Assembly: GCF_907164915.1 (NCBI RefSeq)
Contig: NC_061862.1
Span: 65,288,228-65,352,227 of the forward strand
Length of the DNA: 64,000 bases
Direction of reading: 5' to 3'
Source of the DNA: Impatiens glandulifera
Lineage: Eukaryota; Streptophyta; Magnoliopsida; Ericales; Balsaminaceae
Under the pieces are notes generated by a model that was given only the letters and a program-made list of their open reading frames with translations, did no database searches and was not told the DNA's origin. The position numbers and the translations under genes are program-made. Positions 16,023-51,917 of the stretch are shown here, piece after piece. Every line of letters starts with the position of its first letter. The first letter of the stretch is position 1.

Positions 16023-19000
16023 TCAAGCTGTAGTAGTAGTAGTCTCACCTGAGGACACCAAAATATTACCTTCTTCAATAACCGGTTGCTTCGAATGCAA
16101 CTGCTCCAATTCTTTCGCCGGAAACACTTCCTCCTGCAATTTCGGAGCTATGTTCTTCACATGCAGCCATGTTAGCTCCCAGAAACTATCATCAATGGGA
16201 GCAAGCATCCCTCCCGCCTTCATCACTAACAGAATGTTCTTGAGAAGCTCGGGGACCAATTCGTGAATCTTTTCGCTCCTCTTCCCTCTAAACTTCATCT
16301 TCATGCATCTCTCCATATTATTAAGTACACCTACCCACACTTTCGCGAAAGAAGTCATTCTCCATAGATCCTGAAGAGACTGCAACAACACTTTCGACAT
16401 CAGTTTCACCGAGTTTGATATTGAACTCTCCATGTTCCTATAATCCTTCGGCGACTGTTCCTTAGCGATTTCTAATAAATCGTCGAGCAATTTGAATATG
16501 ACGAGATCGAAACACTGTAACCAGATCTCTCCCGAGAGACAAATACCTTCAGCTCCAGTCAGACTCAACTGCAGCATTAGAATCGCGTGATTCCTAACTT
16601 CTTCACGTTGATCTACGCAAACTTTCCTCAGCCCTTGCACCAGGCGCAACCACATTTCGGCTATGTCGTGATGCATTTTCGTAGCATCCGATCCCAAAGT
16701 TTTAGACCATTTCGCTAGAGAGAATACCGAACCCCCCATCAGATCTAGTGATTTAACCGACCGACTAGCGTTACCTACGTGAGACTCGGAAAACTGACGA
16801 GCTGCGTTAATGCAGAGAACGTAATTCGCCGGAGACAAGTGGGCCCCGTCCGACATAACAAACGATAGCGTTTCGAACCCGGGTTCGGAAGCTTCCGGAT
16901 GGCGGGCGGTTATGGAAATGAGGGAAGTTATCATTCTCCAACCGACGTGGGATCTGACTTGAATTGCGTTTGCTTTGACGAGACGCATAACTTCCATGGT
17001 TATCTGTTCGCAATACGCGTCGGCTACTCGTGCGTCGAGCTTTAAAACGAGCTGGAGCGACTTCAGAAGCTCGTCGGTAAGGTTTTCCTTGTAGGGAAGA
17101 AGCCGATGGCATATTTTGAGTAGACCGAAAACCGCCTTTTCGACTAGAAGACCCGGCATTGTAGACGACTGAACGATGTTAGCTATGTGTTCGTAAACAG
17201 ATTGCCAGAGAAGCATAATCCTGTCGCGGTTATTCAACGTTACGGTGATGAGTAATTCAAGGCAAAAGACTGAGACAGTCTCGTCTTCTTGAACGTTATT
17301 CCCCTTTCGACTGGAAATCAGAGACTGGGTGAGCTGCGAAAGTGATTCAGCTTGAAGGAATTTGCTTTCAGCAAATATGCTATCTATATGGCATTCTCGA
17401 ATCACCTCGATAATCGATCTGTGGGCTGCAAGTTCTTCTTCGGTTGGTTGTGGTGGTGGCTCTTCTGTGTCGAGATACAACAATTGGCTGAACCGTCCTA
17501 TAAAACTAGACGATTTACGATGAGGGACTGGCGGTGGTGGCACATGAGCCACGGTTTTCTTCGAACTTGTTGATGGCTGTTCCAAGCCAGTGTCTGAAGA
17601 CGAGTCCACGTTGTCAGCTGCATCACTAATTAGACGGGATGGAAGAAAACCCAGCTTGTGCAAGCTTAAGATACAATCTACTATATTCTTCCAAGCAGTT
17701 CGGAGATAGTCGCCGTACCTGTTTCAAAAAAGAAAAGAAACAAAAGGTTTATTTCCTACAGAAAGCTAATACTGGGAATCCAACTTAAAATCTAACCCCC
17801 ATACCTGTTTAAAAATAAACATGGCCTAAAAAGGAAAAGAAAAACAGTAGGCGTACCTGTTTGCTATGGTGAAAACTGCTACGGTTGCCATCCTAGCCTT
17901 GGTGTCTTCTGCAAAAGTAAGAGTAAACTCCTCGGGGGACAAAGAATGCAAGAGGTTTGTGAATTTACAAAGAGATACAACCAAATCATCCAAGACTTCC
18001 TCTAGATTGTAACAGGCTGCAATCTTTGCAACAGCTAAGAATCCTTCAACACAAGTTTGAAGAACGTCTTCACGTTCAACCTGGTCAAAGACAACGGAGA
18101 TAGCAGCGATTGTGGGACCAGAAAGGAGAGCAAACATATCGTAGTCAAGGTGAGCCAAGGAATCACAAGAAATAAATGGAGTAACTTGCTTGGATTTGTG
18201 CATCAGGCCAATCCAATTGGATGGTATCATCATAAGAGGAAGACTACCACCTTGCTCTGACGTCAACCTTATTTCATTCTGACAGATTGAGTGATAGAGC
18301 TCTGACAGGTAATCCCGTGGAAGGTCATTGCCTCCATTAATTCTCCTGTTGTTACGGATGAAATCTTCTTCAGTCATCTTCTTCTTCACCTGTGTATTAT
18401 GTTGATCTGTATTGAGAAGTATAATCGAATATGACAACACCAAAGCAGCATCCTTATTCGCTAGAATATTCGGTTCTTGTTCATAATATCTTTCAGAAAA
18501 TGCCTCAAGCACTCTCTGTATCTTCTGCGATTCACCGGGCAGTCTGAAATTTTCAAGAAAAACCCGCAAAGCATTATCCAAATTCATGCCCCTGAAATCG
18601 AAAGCTCTCGCAAATTCATTCAACACTTGAATAGAAAAATCATCGTGATTGCCTAGGTAGTCTCCGACAAAATTCTTGTCCAAACCCTTCGTGTATCTGA
18701 AAAAGCACGCAACACTTGTCGGGTCGAGTTTTTCAGGCAACAAATGCACACTTTGGAGAAACTCCAGACCTTTTTTCGGATCTTGATTGAAGTGATCCGC
18801 TCCAATTGTCAACTTTCTCTTGATATATTTCATATTACGAAGAAACGCAACCAAACTATCAATATCATTGTAGTTCTCACACGCCACTGTCCAGAATGAG
18901 GTATACGATTCAAGGTCAGATGGCATTTTCTCTGGAATTGGAGATTCATTCGTCATTCTTTCATTCATACCTTTAGTCATGGCAATCAGCCCATCCAATG

Positions 19001-21368
19001 CAAGAATATGTATAGCAGACATTGGGGCATTAACAGGAAAAGCACTCTTTGATAAAAGATTAACAATGTCTTCAAATAAGTTGCTGGATGATATGTTGCA
19101 ATCAAAGTTTCCATACATCTCAGCAATAAAATACGGTTGTCTACAAAGGTCAACAAGTGTTTCCATGGCAACCTCTTGTAGTTGGTACGATGCTCCATGC
19201 TTGCTTTGCATAATCCTCAAGAGGACGCTAGAGCAAAAGGCTTCGAGCTGTAGTTTAAGTTCTGAGCGAAGAAAATAATACAGATTGTGAACAATACTGC
19301 AGACTTTTGAAAGTATAAGAGGACTCATTGACAACCCAAACTGCATGAGGTTAAGAAAAAGTTCGTCCTGGATCAAGACCAATAATTTAGGGTGTCGGCT
19401 AAAGGATGCCCCGCCTAATTCTATAGCCGAATTGATTAAACCCAAAGCAAAGAGTGGGACATCTTCGTCGTATGCTATAGGATTTGATCTAGGACCAAAG
19501 TCTATGTTCTCCATGGCATTTAAAAGAGAACATAGAAAATGAAATATTTCAACCATGCATGGGATACCATATGGCTCCATTGTAACAGGGTCTGCAGTTT
19601 TAGCAGCCTCCTCAGTTTTGTTACCCAAGTCAGCATTAGAGCCATTTGAAGTAAATCCATCAGGTGGTGGTGATTCACCAACTCTTCCCAAAATGACATA
19701 ACCATTACCCAGTAGCTCACCCTCGGCATTATATGCATCTTGTTGATGGGCCTATTCCCCAAAAAAACTTCAATATATTACCAGAATATTACAAGAATTT
19801 ATACTACTACATACAGATAATGGAAAATACCTGAAAACGTAATGAATTTGGTTTAAAAAAACTTCATATGAATCACAAAAACTAAAACAAGATAACCATA
19901 TGGTCACAATCACCTACATGGATTTGTTCTTAAATAGTAATTCTAGACTAAGGTGCATTTGATAAAGCTGAAAATAAAGTGCGGAATGCTAAGCTCTCTT
20001 TAAAAAAAGTTTGAATGCTAAATACAGAATTTTAAGTATCGAATTAGTTAAGTGTCTAAAGAATAAATGTTAGTTAAACCAAATAAAAATATCTAAATTT
20101 TATGTATATGATATGTGAGTTGATTCGATAAAATGTGAAACTTCTGTCAGGAAAAGTACTTAAAGATACCGACATAATTTGATTAATTTTCAAGGGCTAA
20201 AGTTGTATTTTGTACGCTCTTACGATACCATCGTTCATAGCTTACCGAATCAAGCCAGAGAGAGGAAAGTAGGGTGAAAAACAGCTTAACTTGAACTGAA
20301 TCTAAATAATTAAGTGATTTTAAATAACAGTTATCAAATGAAATTAATTCAAATGAACACTTAATTATTTAGATTAAGTGATAAGTTATGTTATAAAACA
20401 TTGCCTCAGTCTTCAGGCCTTACCTTACTATTTCATTTATATTTTGACCGGCTACAATTTGTAAATATTTCCCAATTGTGGATAAATTAGTTATTCATGT
20501 TTGCAATTAAGGATAGGTGTTTGAATCTTAAGAGACACAATTTCAAAGATTAGAAGTAAAAACCACCATCTTGACAACACCAAGATGTATATCTAATGCC
20601 AACAGAAAAGCAAAATATGAAACTATTCCTTACCTCCTGACCATGTGCCCTGTCCCCATCAGACAACGCATCTTCTCCATTCTCAATAGAAGGTAAATAT
20701 GAAAAGATGCATCTAACCAATTCATGCATTGTATGGCGTGATGTTCTCTGTAGTAATTCGCCTTTAGAGCTAGCTTGATGAACTACATGGAAACAAGTGT
20801 TCACAATGTTGCACACATGCTGGTTGGTTAATTTCGACGAGGCATTGCATTTTATGCATGCCAAAAGAACCTGAAGTATTTTCATAAGCACTACCTCTTC
20901 AGATGCAGGATCAGTCACCTCAAATCTGCAGCTTGTCACAGCATCAACTATCTTACTCAAAGCTTCGTCTACTTTTAGAGTATTTATGTCAAGGAAATCA
21001 AATGATAAGATTTTGTAAACTGATGACAAAGCAACCCCGGTTATTGGTGCACCAGTTTCATCAGACTGGATCACATCCAAAAATGGTTGGAGGTAAAGAA
21101 CAGGACTGATGTTGTCCCACTGATGTTGCCACGAAAAGATCATTTTCCGCAACTCCTTGAGAGAAATAATAAGAGGATGCTCTAGATGATCATCATCTGC
21201 CATGTATCGGACTCCCCATCTTACATTTCTCCTCATCACAGCCAAAACTGCACCTATTTCTGAATTTATCATACATGCCAGACCACCTCCCCTCAAAGGC
21301 TGAGGAGAATTTCCATTTGGCATCCGGATTGATGGATAGACTTTAGACTGTTTATTAGCCCCCACCAT
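16023..21368 (-). CDS. GNL1: ARF guanine-nucleotide exchange factor, GNOM-LIKE 1 type
   Basis: Large ARF-GEF that loads GTP on ARF1-class GTPases to recruit COPI at the Golgi. Three coding exons (minus): 20634-21368, 17857-19751 and 16023-17718, giving 1441 aa against 1443 in Arabidopsis GNL1. Domain order: N-terminal DCB (MINSEIGAVLAVMRRNVRWG), HUS region (NFDCN near 458), Sec7 about 553-740 with glutamic finger Glu652 in FRLPGESQKI, then HDS regions. The N-terminus and the PRKSSSFIGRF stretch match GNL1 better than GNOM. Residue 690 in YSIILLNTDQHN is Leu, the brefeldin A-resistant form, where GNOM has Met. The start is the first ATG (21366-21368). Exons 1 and 2 join at a codon boundary; exon 2 ends after two bases of the Arg codon. 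Confidence 0.94.
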
Positions 21369-21404
21369 AGTTGTCTCAAATCTTAGGATGCAATCTTGGT
21401 TAAA

Positions 21405-22120
21405 CTGAAATCATACGGCCAGAAACATGGAAATGAAACCTGATCCATCAAATAAATTGAGTGAGGGAAAGAGAAAGCAACAAAACAAATTTAACCTAGA
21501 TTAAAATGCTATAGACTTTGTAAACACGAGAGAGATTCATGAAATGACACAATGCACATAATATAAAATGGAGAAATTCAAACCAATGAAGAATATAATG
21601 ATCCAACTGTAACTTGTAAAATGACCATCCTGCTTCCTCCAATTCCTCTCTTGAGAAAGAAGAACATTTCATTCAGCCCTCACAATCCCTTAAACTTACA
21701 GGGAATGTTTGGACAGCAGGGGGGTTCTTCTCTTTTTCTATAGCAAACAAAACAAAAAAAACAGACAATTCGAATCGAATGGTGATCTTAACTGTAAAAG
21801 AAATGAAATAAAGTGAAGTGACCAATCCTTGACTACTAGAGAGGAAAGAAGTAGAGAAGTAGCTCGATACATGCATAGATACATGTATAAGCAAAAGCAT
21901 GTCTTGAAATCTCAAACACCGGATCTAGCTTGACCGAAGTCAATCCAAGTATTAGCATCGAATTGCAATGTTAAGTTGCGGAAATAACAGAGATTACAGT
22001 CGGTTAACAGCTTTAGAGACCGGATCGCGGCAAGAAACAACGATTTGTGTGAAACATTTCCGATAGAGAAAATAAACGGATTGAGAGGAGAGAGATAGAA
22101 AGGGATCGGGAGGGTCATAC
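21405..22120 (-). other. 5' UTR intron of GNL1
   Basis: On the minus strand, donor CCAAAG|GTATGA (22120/22119) and acceptor GATTTCAG|TTTAAC (ending at 21405) define a 716-bp leader intron. A first non-coding exon would lie at about 22121-22230. GNOM-family genes are known to carry leader introns. Predicted from sites only. Confidence 0.5.
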
Positions 22121-24797: not shown

Positions 24798-26010
24798 CTA
24801 ATCTCGTGACCTCACTTTTGCACCCAACTATCTCAACAGTACCAACATTTTTTAACTTCAATTTTGACAAATCAACAATCTCATCATATCACTAACCTTT
24901 TTGCCTTAACTTTTTCGGTAGACCAACAATTTCATTCATATATTTATCACTAATATTTTTTGTTTACTAATTAATCTCTCACATTATCCATTGAAAAACC
25001 AACCACAAATATCTTATAATTGGCAAGCCAATGTTACCCGTCTTTTATCTCTCGGCAAACCAAGCACAAATCTTAATCATACTTTTACAACTCTCTTATC
25101 CTTGGCAAAACCAATGTTATCGACCTCTTATCCCTTGAAAACCAATGACCAAATCTCAGTTGACCTCTTATCCATCGGTAAACCACATCTCAATCTCAAT
25201 GTTACAGCGACCTCTTATCCCTCGACAAATCAACCATCAATCGACCTCTCTAATCTCGTAACATCACTCACTTCTGTACTCAACTATATCAAACCAATAT
25301 CTTTTACCTTCACTTTTGAAAAATCAACAAATATCATCCATATATTTAACCAACAATATTTTTGTTTTTCCAATTAGTTTCTCATATCATTAATTGCTCA
25401 TCTTATCTATCGGCAAACTGACCACAAATATCTTATAATTGGCAAACCAATATTACCAGTCTCTTATTCCTCAGCAAACCGTCCACAATTCTTAATTACA
25501 CTTTCACAAGTCTCTTATCCTTGGCAAAACCAATGTTACCGGTCTCTTATCCCTCAGCAAACCAACCACAAATCTTAATCATACTTTCACAAGTCTCTTA
25601 TCCTTGGCAAAACCAATGTTATCGACCTCTTATCCATCGACAAACCACATCACAATCTCAATGTTACCACAACCTCTTATCCCTTGATAAATCAACCATC
25701 AATGAACCTCTCTAATCTCGTAACCTCACTTACTTCTGTACTCAAATATATCAATAGTACCAACATCTTTACCTTCACTTTTGACAAACCAACAAATCTC
25801 ATCCATATATTTGACCATCAATATTTTTGTTTTCCAATTAGTTTCTCATATCACTAATCTCTCATCTTATCTCTCGACAAACCAACAACAAATCATAATC
25901 ACACTTTCACACGCTTCTTATCTCTCGGCAAACCAACCATTTATCTACATCGTAACCTCATATTTTGGTCAATCAAATATATTATTCATATATTTTAACC
26001 ATCAATGTCT
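24798..26010. repeat. Tandem array with two levels of periodicity
   Basis: Higher-order units are marked by CTAATCTCGT(A/G)AC at 24798, 25250 and 25712, about 452 and 462 bp apart, with a decayed mark near 25935. Inside each unit is a short variable subrepeat of about 35-50 bp built on CTCTTATCC..(T/C)GGCAAACCAA and ACCACAAATCTTAATCA. The module ACCACAAATATCTTATAATT also recurs (25002 and 25421). The open frames here only reflect the repeat. There is no dispersed-element signature, so a local satellite is the simplest description. Confidence 0.82.
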
Positions 26011-38815: not shown

Positions 38816-38955
38816 GGGAAAATTACCTGGGCGGCCCTCGAACTATCTCGATCGCTCACTTTTGACCCTCAAACTAATTTTTGAAATAAATCGCCCCTTC
38901 AACTTTTATAAAGGTCACTAGTGGCCCTTCCGTCAAATTTTTAGTTAAACCTAAC
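38816..38955 (+). mobile_element. Isolated MULE-type terminal repeat
   Basis: GGGAAAATTACCTGGGCGGC..CTCGATCGCTCACTTTTGAC..AAGGTCACTAGTGGCCCTTC..CCGTCAAATTT follows the same order of motifs as the ends of the element at 23379-24402. I found no inverted partner downstream, so one end is missing or too diverged. Confidence 0.45.
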
Positions 38956-39499
38956 TATTTAAGTTTAAAATATTTTTTTTTATATATATTATCTTTAATC
39001 TTATATTTTATATTTATATATATAATTATTAAATCGCTTATATATAATATTATATATATATATATTATTATTAAATTTTATATAATTATTAAATCTTTTA
39101 TATAATAAATAAATAATATATATATTATTTATTTTTATCTATATATATATAATTTATATATATTATCTTTAACTAATTTATATATAATATATATTTTAAA
39201 AAATAATTTAAGTGTTAAAAGTATTTGAGTAGTTAGAAGGTTTCAATTTTGCGAGTGAATTTTTGCGAGTGTTAAAAATAATATCGCGAGTGAATTTTTT
39301 TAATATAAATTCTCAAAAAAATTTCATTTTGTTATTTTCTTTCTCTCTCTTCTCTCTCTTCTCGCGATGACAGCGGAACCCTAAACAAATATATTATACA
39401 GATCGAGACAAAAATCGTTCTAATATCAGGTGATTTAATCGATTTATGCTCTTATTTTCATTATTTTCATTTTCAAACTTTAAACCATGAGATTTTCTT

Positions 39500-39836
39500 A
39501 TGTTCATCTTGGTTGTTCATCTTGTCAATGATGAAGTTGATGATGCTCTGATTCGGTTCTGTTTCAGAGAAGATTCATTTGATTCGCACGACTTTACGTT
39601 TCGCGAAGGACTTCACGCGAAGGGCTTCGCGTTACGCGAAGCGACACGGTCAGCACGCGAAGGGCTTCACGTTTCGCGAAGGTCATCGCCTTACGCCGAC
39701 ACGGTCAGCCCGCGAAGTGGCACGGTCGGCACGCGAAGCGGCACGGTCGGCATGCGAAGCGGCACAATCGTCACGCGAAGGCACATCGCGTTACGCGAAG
39801 CGGCACAGAGTTGTACTTAGATTTGTGTAAAACATC
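39500..39836 (+). other. Repeat-encoded ORF in module 1
   Basis: From an in-frame ATG at 39500 the frame gives MFILVVHLVNDEVDDALIRF and then CFREDSFDSHDFTFREG. It then runs into the CGCGAAG tandem repeats, where two frames are open to 39820/39830 and one keeps (A)RSARE(A/V) heptads and ends RYAKRHRVVLRFV. The same C-terminal words occur in modules 3 and 4. Frames have slipped within the repeat. The function, if any, is unknown. Confidence 0.3.
39590..39815 (+). repeat. CGCGAAG-rich 21-bp tandem repeat, module 1
   Basis: GC- and CpG-rich array in very AT-rich surroundings. Its unit is about CGCGAAGCGGCACGGTCGGCA (21 bp, one base changed or more in most copies), about four recognisable units at 39710-39790. 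It is preceded by palindromic words such as TTCGCGTTACGCGAA and TTTCGCGAA. Confidence 0.85.
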
Positions 39837-40560
39837 AAATTCGATTACTACTGGTGTGAGTATACTTATTTCTTAGTATATCGCAGATGTATTTTCCTTT
39901 CTTGTACTATTATTTTCTCTAAGGTGTGAGTAATGAATGCAAGTTTGATTAAAAATGATATTTGTGTTTGTAAGCTAAAGTCTTAGTTGATTAGAAATCT
40001 GAGTGAAAAGTTGAGTTTAAAACACTTGATTTTTTTATTAAATGGTCATGCAATTGAAAAAAATAAGAAGATTTTCTTAATGAACCAGATTTTGGATACC
40101 ATTTATAGAGAAGATACTGATTTTACATAGACTTGTTTGTTATTGACCATTTTGAATGGAAGCTCTCTTTATCTTTAATCTCACGTCAATCAAGAAACCA
40201 TTTTTGTTAATCACTTTTAATGGAAGATCTCTTTATCTTACCTCTTTATCTGGTAAAAAAAATTGAATGAAGTTCTACAAGAAATTTTTCTACACCAAGG
40301 AAGCCCAAGGTTGTGATTCAGACAAAAATTCAGAGTAGTATTATTAAGAATTTTCTCTTACATATATTTGCAAAATTGATGAACAAAGGCCATATGAATT
40401 AGATTTACCACCAAAACATCGAAGATTATGGTTCTAAACATGTACAAGTTTATACACCATAGATATGTAACATTGTTGTTGCTTCTTGTGGGGCTCAACA
40501 ACATAAACAACTCTCTATTATATGTATGCCTTTTAGGGTTTAGAACCATATTGTTGAGAA

Positions 40561-40773
40561 TCACAAGGCGGTGACTGTTTTTGTAATTGTCCTCTTCTTC
40601 TTCTTATCCTCCTTCATTGAGAATCTTTCATCAAATTCACTCAAAAGCTTGTTAAGTGACATACCTTCGCGAAACGTGAAGTCGCGGGAATCAAATGAAT
40701 CTTCCCTGAAACAGAACCGAATCAGAGAATCATTAACTTCATCATTGACAAGATGAACAACCACGATAAACAA
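40561..40773 (-). other. ORF in module 2 with a different C-terminus
   Basis: The frame begins MFIVVVHLVNDEVNDSLIRF and continues through REDSFDSRDFTFREG as in modules 1 and 4. The repeat region is then replaced by MSLNKLLSEFDERFSMKEDK and KKKRTITKTVTAL. The switch point CGCGAAG|GTATGTC looks like a splice donor, so the Lys-rich tail may be intron read-through or a captured sequence. Unrecognised; 70 aa. Confidence 0.3.
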
Positions 40774-41179
40774 CCAAGATGAACATTAGAAAATCTCATG
40801 GTTTAGGGTTTGAATATGAAAATAATGAAAATAAGAACATAAATCGATCCAATCACCTGATATTAGAACGATTTTCGTCTCGATCTGTATAATATATTTG
40901 TTTAGGGTTTCGCCGCTGTGGTTCCGCCACCGCCGTCGCGAGAAGAGAGAAGAGGGGGAAGAGAAAGAAAGAAAATACCAAAATAAAAAATTTGAAAATT
41001 TATATAAAAAAATTCACCTCGCGAAACGCGAAGTCCCTTCGCGTTAGGCGAAGAGGTTAATTTCGTCCAAAAAAATATAAGTGACCACGAGAGCAAATAA
41101 AGTTATAAAGTGACCATCATGTCAAATAACCCTATCTTCAGGATCATTTCGTCAAATTTCCCCATGTGTGAGGTCAGTT

Positions 41180-41188
41180 GGACATAGG
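41180..41188. other. Target-site duplication, left
   Basis: GGACATAGG, identical to 43008-43016. Nine bases is the typical Mutator-superfamily duplication. One extra G on each side makes the edge ambiguous by one base. Confidence 0.8.
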
Positions 41189-41796
41189 GGGAAATTTGAC
41201 GAAATGACCCCAAAGATAGGGTTATTTGACCTGGTGGGAAATAATAATTTCATTTGCTCTCGTGGTCACTTTTATTTTTTTTTGGATGAAATTACCCTCT
41301 TTACTTCGCGTAACGCGAAGGGACTTTGCGTTTTGCGAAGTGAATTATGGTTTTATATAAATATCCAAATTTTTCATTTCATTCATTTACTTTCTCTCTC
41401 TTCTCTCTTTGCTCTTGTTCGACGGCGAAGGCTACGACAACGGCGGAAACATCAAAGATAAGAAAACTCTAACACCCTAACATTCAGATGTTCATTATAC
41501 TGTTCTTATTTTTATTATCTTCATTTCAAACGATTTATGTTATTCTTAATCAAACTCTAACCCTAAATCAATTTAATCTGTTCTTATTATTCATATTGGT
41601 TCATATTTGTTCATGAATCGATGTTCATCATACTGTTCTTATTTCTATTATTTTTATTTCAAACAATTTATGTTGTTCTTAATCAAACCCTAACCCTAAA
41701 TTAATTTAATTTGTTCTTATTGTTCATATTGGTTCATATTTTTGTTTATCTTATATTTGCAGATCATATGGGTTCCGTTTCAGGGAAGATTTACTT

Positions 41797-41862
41797 CGCG
41801 TTACGCGAAACGGCACGGACGGCACGCGAAGGCACATCGCGTTACGCGAAGCGGCACAGAGT
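41797..41862 (+). repeat. CGCGAAG repeat, module 3 (short version)
   Basis: CTTCGCGTTACGCGAAACGG..GGCACGCGAAGG..CATCGCGTTACGCGAAGCGG. It has one to two 21-bp units only, followed by the conserved GTTGTACTTAGAT. The matching frame ends SRYAKRHRVVLRF. Confidence 0.8.
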
Positions 41863-42387
41863 TGTACTTAGATTCTTTTCAATCATTTTCTTTCACTACA
41901 AATGTATTTATATAAGGTTGCTTTTGTTGCTTCTGTTGTGTAATGGAAAATTGGAATGAGTAGTAATTGTTGTTATCATCATTCTTTATAAAAGCAAGTT
42001 CTTCTTCCATGTTTCTTTTTTCTTCTTTGGCCAATACCCCCTTCTTCACTTACTCTAGCTTTTTTGCACCTTAACATCCAAGTCAACTCTTGCCCATTAC
42101 CCAAAACATACACACTCACATATTGTCTTATGGTCCCGAGAATATGAGATTTTATTTTTACGTAACTTATTTCAGATTTGTATATAAAATAATCGTTTAA
42201 ACAACATACCAAATGAGGATAAAGAACCACCCAATGAAATTACAAAACAACATGCAAAAACATTCACATTATACAAATCATACACACTTGCTATATAAAT
42301 GAGATTGTAATGTTCGATTTGAAAAGGAAATTAAGCAAAAATTGAATATTTGAAGAGTATGACATTAGAAATTAAGCAAAAAATGTT

Positions 42388-42711
42388 TTACACAAATCTA
42401 AGTACAACTATGTGCCGCTTCGCGTAACGCGATGTGTCTTCGTGTGCCGACCGTGCCGTTTCGCGTGCCGACCGTGCCGTTTCGCGTGCCGACCGTGCCG
42501 CTTCGCGTGCCGACCGTGTCGCTTCGCGAAACGTGAAGTCGCGAGAATCAAATGAATCTTCCCTGAAACGGAACCGAATCAGAGCAATATCAACTTTATC
42601 ATCGACAAAATGAACAACCACGATGAACAATAAGATGAATAAGAAGAAAACCTTATGGTTTAGGTTTGAAGATGAATATAATGACAGTAAAACATAAATC
42701 GATTCAATCAT
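42388..42711 (-). CDS. Hypothetical 107-aa protein with 7-residue RSARE(A/T)A repeats
   Basis: An ATG-started frame lies in the right arm of the long-TIR element. It has a hydrophobic N-terminal half (about residues 22-38, KVFFLFILLFIVVVHFV), then VDIALIRFRFREDSFDSRDF, then about four heptads of the type (A/T)ARSARE encoded by the 21-bp DNA repeat, and an end SRYAKRHIVVLRFV shared with modules 1 and 3. A TATA-like box (about 42863-42876) and a CT-rich leader precede it on the minus strand. No family is recognised. It may be only an accident of the repeat, although the flanking residues are shared between modules. Confidence 0.3.
   Translation of the reverse strand: MIESIYVLLSLYSSSNLNHKVFFLFILLFIVVVHFVDDKVDIALIRFRFREDSFDSRDFTFREATRSAREAARSARETARSARETARSAHEDTSRYAKRHIVVLRFV
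42417..42535 (-). repeat. CGCGAAG 21-bp tandem repeat, module 4
   Basis: In minus orientation about four units of CGCGAA(G/A)CGGCACGGTCGGCA in register, ending CATCGCGTTACGCGAAGCGG. This is the cleanest of the arrays. Confidence 0.88.
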
Positions 42712-43007
42712 CTGACATTAGAACGTGTTTTCGTCGTCGATCTGTATAATGTGTTCGTTTAGGTTTAGGGTTTCGTCGTGGTTCCGCTACTACCGTGCCG
42801 TCGCGAGAAGAGAGAGAAGAGAGGGAAGAGAGAGAAAGAAAATGACGAAATGAAAAAATTTAAGTATTTATATAAAAGAAAATTCTTCGCGACGCGAAGA
42901 GGGAAATTTCGTCCAAAAAAATAAAAATGACCACGAGAGCAAATAAAGTTATTATTTGCCACCAGGTCAAATAACCCTATCTTTGGGATCATTTAGTCAA
43001 ATTTCCC

Positions 43008-43016
43008 GGACATAGG
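43008..43016. other. Target-site duplication, right
   Basis: GGACATAGG, identical to 41180-41188. Confidence 0.8.

Positions 43017-46370: not shown

Positions 46371-51917
<5,547 letters not shown>

Follow-up and report, generated by a model that had tools for sequence, protein, structure and literature searches.

Internally repetitive terminal arms are known from Foldback/Galileo-type elements, and the second gene of the maize element MuDR is mudrB. The VANC proteins, which contain the domain DUF1985, are described in excerpts of two reports as binding tandem motifs in the non-coding DNA of their own elements; VANC is an anti-silencing protein of Arabidopsis, and related VANCs differ in their motif (PMC5735166, PMC10398659). 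DUF287 is the other domain marked in VANC in these excerpts, and KIU is the name used for VANC genes with a ULP1 domain in an excerpt of a further paper (PMC13317346). The target-site duplications of MULEs range from 8 to 11 bp according to one partial source (PMC6446971) and from 9 to 11 bp according to another (PMC3310237). The former also mentions, in the portion available, members of the VANDAL group with terminal inverted repeats (TIRs) of 46-174 bp.

The element described here, E1, is a gene-free mobile element of about 1.8 kb in the 654 Mb genome of Impatiens glandulifera. It lies within the window, the whole analysed stretch of 64,000 nucleotides (C1:65288228-65352227). The family resembles the VANDAL/KIU (KAONASHI) elements of Arabidopsis in combining a MuDR-type transposase with a DUF1985 gene that has a ULP1 domain, and in having short tandem non-coding motifs that differ between related elements (here in the large stretches). 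The Impatiens TIRs, however, extend over about 150 bp or more, whereas VANDALs are characterized in the excerpt as having none or short degenerate ones, with some exceptions (PMC6446971). The Impatiens unit is a 19-bp palindrome, whereas the VANDAL motif given in the excerpts is YAGTATTAY. Unlike VANC, the single Impatiens protein scanned for DUF287 (from the large element L045, at E 0.01) lacked a match, as did shorter pieces. A further difference is that gene-free Impatiens copies have 5' gene-like regions at both ends, and an anti-silencing function would here be a putative one.

The internally repetitive arms are shared with Foldback/Galileo-type elements, but the transposase in Impatiens is of the MuDR type. 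The family has small copies with unrelated interiors, as does maize Mutator/MuDR, but the Impatiens duplications are mostly 8 bp long, the arms contain palindrome blocks and the second gene is DUF1985-ULP1, not mudrB. In both, moreover, the TIRs are long and promoter-bearing and the autonomous element has a pair of convergent genes, as far as the excerpt on maize describes them (PMC3310237). The barley Hvu_Abermu elements are similar in their GGG...CCC ends, TIRs of 138-145 bp and high copy number, but differ in their duplications, 267 of 278 being 9 bp, 10 being 8 bp and one 10 bp in the part of the report available (PMC9168764). In the portions of the open literature covering DUF1985, Kaonashi/ULP1, VANC and Impatiens transposable elements, the family is undescribed, and DUF1985 together with MULE gave no match in the open literature. 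The 12-base terminus is absent from the full text of 5.39 million open-access papers, subscription papers, Repbase and Dfam being outside the scope of the search; within that scope, nothing contradicts an earlier note on this DNA, whose author knew of no described family with this repeat.

Structure of E1

E1 occupies positions 41189..43007 of the window (plus strand, 1819 bp) and is bounded by GGGAAATTTGAC and its inverse. The outer TIRs, situated at 41189..41281 (plus strand) and 42915..43007 (minus strand), are 93 nt long and 94% complementary to each other. Exact copies of a 9-bp target-site duplication, GGACATAGG, flank the element at 41180..41188 and 43008..43016. Both the inverted termini and the duplication had been proposed in the earlier note, and they agree with it to the base. 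Upon scanning the window for 20-base inverted ends accompanied by duplications of 8-11 bp, eight rows were obtained: two were E1 in two registers, four were self-matches of CGCGAAG and two were AT-rich. Each of 20 shuffled controls gave none or one. A 22-base pattern for the terminus, degenerate at two positions, has 332 exact occurrences in the genome (153 forward, 179 reverse), whereas its reversed control has none. The exact duplication, the termini and the shuffles together rule out E1 as a chance pattern. The long TIRs expected of a MULE are present (93 nt at 94% in E1, up to about 700 bp in subfamily S3, defined below). The non-autonomous Mutator-like status assigned to E1 in the earlier note was further confirmed by its relatives, which encode a MuDR-type transposase. 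A hAT identity is ruled out by the Mutator-type transposase domains of the relatives and by the long TIRs.

The left arm (41189..41889, plus strand) is of a type designated B. Arms of this type align with the DUF1985-gene end of the large element L041 over 566 bases (arm positions 1-566, at 73%, for E1). Along the left arm lie a palindrome-like 17-bp sequence, CTTCGCGTAACGCGAAG (41304..41320), a TATA box (41352-41362, plus strand), a CT-rich leader (from 41391, plus strand), an acceptor-like GGTTCCGTTTCAG/GGAAGATT at 41771 and a CGCGAAG block (41793..41858, plus strand); the arm also includes a 133-bp tandem duplication. The right arm (42380..43007, minus strand), of type A, has a TATA box, a CT leader, ACAGATCGA, a donor-like site with two mismatches to TATCAG/GTGATT and, again, the acceptor-like GGTTCCGTTTCAG/GGAAGATT. 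Its CGCGAAG array (42438..42528, minus strand) consists of 4.3 copies of a 21-bp unit with 94% matches. All of the arm features listed in the earlier note, namely a TATA-like box, a pyrimidine-rich leader and a 21-bp tandem array, were thus found. The open reading frame in which that note placed the array lacks protein support: a homologue search with the 109-aa frame was negative at E 0.001 for all 46 candidates, and a Pfam scan gave nothing above cut-off, ruling out a small protein encoded in the array. All three frames of the array strand are open, so a location inside an open frame is hardly informative.

Across 33 arms, the 11-base windows of the TATA box are the best conserved of 235, and the arms can therefore be regarded as transcription-unit-like, as the note had it. 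Of 34 arms, 30 have an exact copy of TTTATATAAAT, the sequence whose windows rank first, and 33 have it with two or fewer mismatches. The acceptor-like GGTTCCGTTTCAG/GGAAGATT is recognized with at most four mismatches in 31 of 34; the similarity of these sites and the donor-like site to splice signals suggests that the arms may be spliced there.

The view of E1 as two convergent copies of one unit is true in a loose sense, but the arms are of two types. Their alignment, suggested in the same note, gave 63.5% identity over ungapped columns, because the left arm departs from the right one over about 41440-41790. In 11 of the 12 S1 and S2 elements, a single arm is of type A, as defined by two markers jointly; L031 has no such arm. 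The type B marker is on the opposite arm in nine of these 11, the pattern search having found none in L025 and L028. The two A markers do not occur together in any of the 10 S3 arms.

Copies, subfamilies and gene-bearing relatives

A genome search with the left arm gave at least 96 matches (40 scored of 1553 candidates). Among the window and 20 other loci, 17 elements with two recognizable ends of the GGGAAATTTGAC type were found, having lengths of 1695-2397 bp; an end was recognized at five or fewer differences in 21 bases, and four of the 20 loci, with a single recognized end, were excluded. The elements were grouped by their interiors. S1 contains E1, L026, L027, L028, L030, L032, L033 and, in part, L024; S2 contains L022, L023, L025, L031 and E2; and S3 contains L034, L035, L036, L038 and L040. 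The interior of E1 (41890..42379) is common to seven other elements, one of them partly: its middle 400 bp are 89.1-94.5% identical to six of them, and L024 matches over 162 bp. The K2P distance of E1 to other S1 members is 0.079-0.149. L024 also contains a 2.2-kb repeat (547-2761), 85% identical to a stretch to the right of the L031 element, with 482 CG sites versus 7 CHG sites, counted in both directions. A MITE-sized copy is suggested at C2:12638845-12639320, where two exact termini point towards each other over a distance of 476 bp. Matches of a 17-mer in bacterial (11) and viral (1) contigs were taken as chance.

The window holds a second family element, E2 (39284..41162; subfamily S2), which is absent from the earlier note. 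It lies 26 bp upstream of E1 and is truncated at its left end, lacking the outer 115-150 bp of the left arm; its interior is 93% identical to that of L023. Adjoining E2 at 38817-38960 is a sequence that starts with GGGAAAATTACCTGGGCGGCCCTCGAACTATC and appears by eye to be the end of another repeat family. Elsewhere in the window, a GNOM-type ARF-GEF gene occupies 16023-21410 on the minus strand, with Sec7 (2.2e-74), HUS and GBF1-like TPR domains. Protein-kinase exons, by eye SnRK1-like, lie at 49882-51440 on the minus strand. The region 24922-25939 has an 83-bp tandem repeat (25423-25662) amid long plus-strand frames, of which a single one was scanned, giving no Pfam match. The organisms named among the 120 matches listed for the window are land plants and one green alga.

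Target-site duplications were tabulated for 21 elements (17 small and four large). Five have exact and two imperfect duplications of 9 bp, six have exact duplications of 8 bp, five match at 7 of 8 positions, one has an exact 7 bp duplication, and two are unreadable. The 9-bp duplication, put forward in the earlier note, is hence correct for E1 but not a rule for the family, in which 8 bp is commoner. Eleven of the 21 are exact at 8 or 9 bp and seven are imperfect, in agreement with membership of the MULEs; under the stricter definition of 9-11 bp, 12 of the 21 would fall outside.

Large elements with the same or nearly identical ends have a MuDR-type transposase gene convergent with a DUF1985 gene. 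L041 is 7136 bp long, with an 8-bp duplication, and both of its ends equal the left end of E1 over 21 bases. Its minus-strand frames contain DBD_Tnp_Mut (6.3e-9) and SWIM (4.6e-4) and its plus-strand frames DUF1985 (1.8e-9). L045 is 7630 bp long, with a 9-bp duplication and ends two substitutions from those of E1. It has an 880-codon frame with MULE (3.4e-23), DBD_Tnp_Mut and SWIM domains on the minus strand, and a 488-codon DUF1985 frame (1.5e-21) and a separate 184-codon Ulp1 frame (1.3e-22) on the plus strand. In P0132 and P0147, DUF1985 and ULP1 lie within one gene model. In L044 a MULE match is accompanied by a shorter DUF1985 frame, and the ends have one substitution on the left and none on the right. 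L042 has a MULE match and a damaged left end. The predicted structure of a DUF1985 protein was too poor for use (mean pLDDT 47.6).

The match of type A arms to the DUF1985-side ends is less clear than that of type B arms and is divided into several parts. For the transposase-side ends, the match to the arms covers the outer 125-150 bp plus short pieces of leader and array; in the outer part of the arms, the transposase side of L042 is as close as any other end. A genome search with DUF1985 scored 150 matches out of 1669 candidates, and many of these matches have open frames of about 480-500 codons. That dozens of these have nearly equal scores suggests a recent burst of large elements.

Palindromic arrays and methylation traces

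The 17 small elements contain 44 occurrences of the degenerate palindrome CTTNNCGNNNCGNNAAG, L040 having none, and the four large ones contain 48, compared to Markov expectations with means of at most 0.03. The palindrome is absent from the remaining 60,276 bp of the window and from 120,271 bp of flanks at 16 loci. The form found in E1, CTTCGCGTWACGCGAAG, has 53 exact places in 654 Mb, and its reversed control has none. E1 has two full palindromes only, one of them outside the array, and an array period of 21 bp; the main array spacings in the small copies are 21 and 20 bp. In L041, L044 and L045, 38 of 41 palindromes are situated outside the frames examined, and the remaining three fall within the extreme N-terminal part of a stop-to-stop frame.

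Arrays of period 19 with a CG-containing unit and a palindromic core, the class to which this comparison was confined (other periods and units without CG being left out), number 37 and are present in all eight large stretches. Both ends are recognized in four of these stretches (L041, L044, L045 and L042, the last being damaged at the left). In L046 only the left end is recognized, and the 7.6 kb analysed for L047, L048 and L049 contain neither end, apart from partial matches of a chance-like kind; L046-L049 were picked by hand, and so non-randomly, from the 150 DUF1985 matches. Some of the arrays directly precede the DUF1985 frame, and others follow it or lie between the genes. The units of the 37 arrays have an identity of 0.823 within and 0.765 between stretches, a difference that none of 2000 label permutations equalled, kinship of the stretches and shared positions being ignored. 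The clearest example is L045, where one form, unseen in the other seven stretches, is common to four of the five arrays. In the 17 small elements, the corresponding values are 0.570 within arms, 0.590 within elements and 0.575 between elements. Identity within is thus not above identity between, and no concerted evolution of E1-type units is seen.

The observed/expected ratio of CpG is 1.60 in the 17 small elements and 0.77-0.95 in the large elements; the rest of the window, excluding E1 and E2, has 0.75. The CpG counts behind the transition rates omit L024 and L022. For CG and CHH sites, respectively, these rates are 0.073 and 0.074 in S1, 0.061 and 0.052 in S2, 0.083 and 0.080 in S3, and 0.121 and 0.070 in the large elements. 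The CG/CHH ratio is 0.98 in S1, 1.16 in S2, 1.04 in S3 and 1.73 in the large elements, compared to 1.38 and 1.87 in two controls; the pairs behind these comparisons are non-independent, and selection or alignment could yield the same differences. Raised CHG rates in S2 (0.156) and S3 (0.147) suggest some methylation. In the large elements, CG sites are changed in 37 of 501 cells inside motifs versus 369 of 2866 outside. S2 has 25 of 271 inside versus 33 of 683 outside, the reverse of simple protection. The mutation contexts are mixed, and a CpG signature of lost methylation was not adopted.

Proposed role of the arms and arrays

We consider that E1 is probably a gene-free passenger that keeps a promoter, ends recognized by a transposase and candidate target sites for anti-silencing. 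The MuDR-type transposase of the larger relatives would mobilize it in trans. Each of its arms represents a diverged version of a segment made up of a promoter, a leader and a first-intron-like part, the last presuming that the splice-like sites are used, and the two stand head to head around an unrelated interior. They correspond, clearly for type B and less clearly for type A, to the DUF1985-gene end of the relatives. The CGCGAAG blocks carry a version of the palindrome that recurs every 19 bp in the large elements. Their most likely role would be to bind a protein encoded by the elements; the DUF1985 protein, in the manner of VANC, is the foremost candidate, and its binding would keep the gene-free copy accessible to the transposase and to transcription. 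This assignment is favoured because the gene content and the motif layout match those of VANC elements. It is weakened by several results: DUF287 had no match in the L045 protein scanned, the array units of the small elements are not homogenized, E1 has a 21-bp period and two full palindromes only, the mutation contexts are mixed, with S2 opposed to simple protection, and the raised CpG ratio of the small elements is not shared by the large ones.

The main rival is that the arrays are subterminal binding sites of the transposase, with no part in anti-silencing. Such sites reside in Mutator TIRs, according to the excerpt of PMC3310237. CGCGAAG blocks are present in both arms of E1, and L041, L042, L044 and L045 each have one array at the transposase-gene end. 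This explanation is nevertheless unlikely: arrays are also situated far from the ends, near the DUF1985 frame, as the excerpts report for VANC targets, and the outer 12 bp of the arms, with a mean conservation of 0.967 (alignment without L038_R), are a better candidate for transposase binding. The arrays might instead be functionless, satellite-like repeats that grow passively by slippage. Tandem repeats of other periods and sequences are indeed present in these elements, and the E1-type units are not homogenized. However, the motif is palindromic, and the arrays recur in every one of the eight large stretches, for the most part outside long frames, with higher identity within than between those stretches; passive repeats are therefore rather improbable.

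Other explanations concern the interior and the arms. As a Pack-MULE, the element would hold a captured piece of a host gene under the control of the TIR promoter. One kind of arm is combined with at least three interiors (S1 to S3), which have no match to L041, L042, L044 or L045; the possibility that the S1 interior is a remnant of these large elements was rejected, neither blastn nor tblastn having given a match. Four S1 interior frames, however, lack a Pfam match above cut-off (best PsbP, E 0.024), and the longest stop-to-stop frame entirely within the E1 interior has 86 aa; gene capture is a possible but less likely account. The earlier note had suggested that convergent transcripts of the inverted arms form long double-stranded RNA, and hairpin or complementary RNA of this kind could feed silencing of the family. 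The TATA boxes of both arms point inward, and in four of the five S3 elements (L034, L035, L036 and L040) the arms run almost without interruption over about 700 bp at 73-86%. For E1 such RNA is possible yet unsupported, the complementarity being split into separate blocks of 93, 65 and 87 nt between arms of two types. Moreover, any long inverted repeat could form hairpin RNA, and the palindromic motif and its spread would therefore be left unexplained. We regard this account as very doubtful.

Returning to the arrays as targets of an element-encoded protein, we tentatively propose a wider, less secure reading, by analogy with VANC. A TIR-bearing Mutator family outside the Brassicaceae may have a VANC-like anti-silencing system, whose gene-free passengers, by keeping palindromic targets and, at either end, a promoter region resembling that of the anti-silencing gene, would share the protection without the cost of the protein, while the motif of each subfamily would drift with its DUF1985 protein. 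Should the DUF1985 protein target the arrays, sequence-specific anti-silencing by proteins of the elements would extend beyond the VANDALs of Arabidopsis. If that is true, the escape of gene-free elements from silencing would become testable in Impatiens glandulifera.
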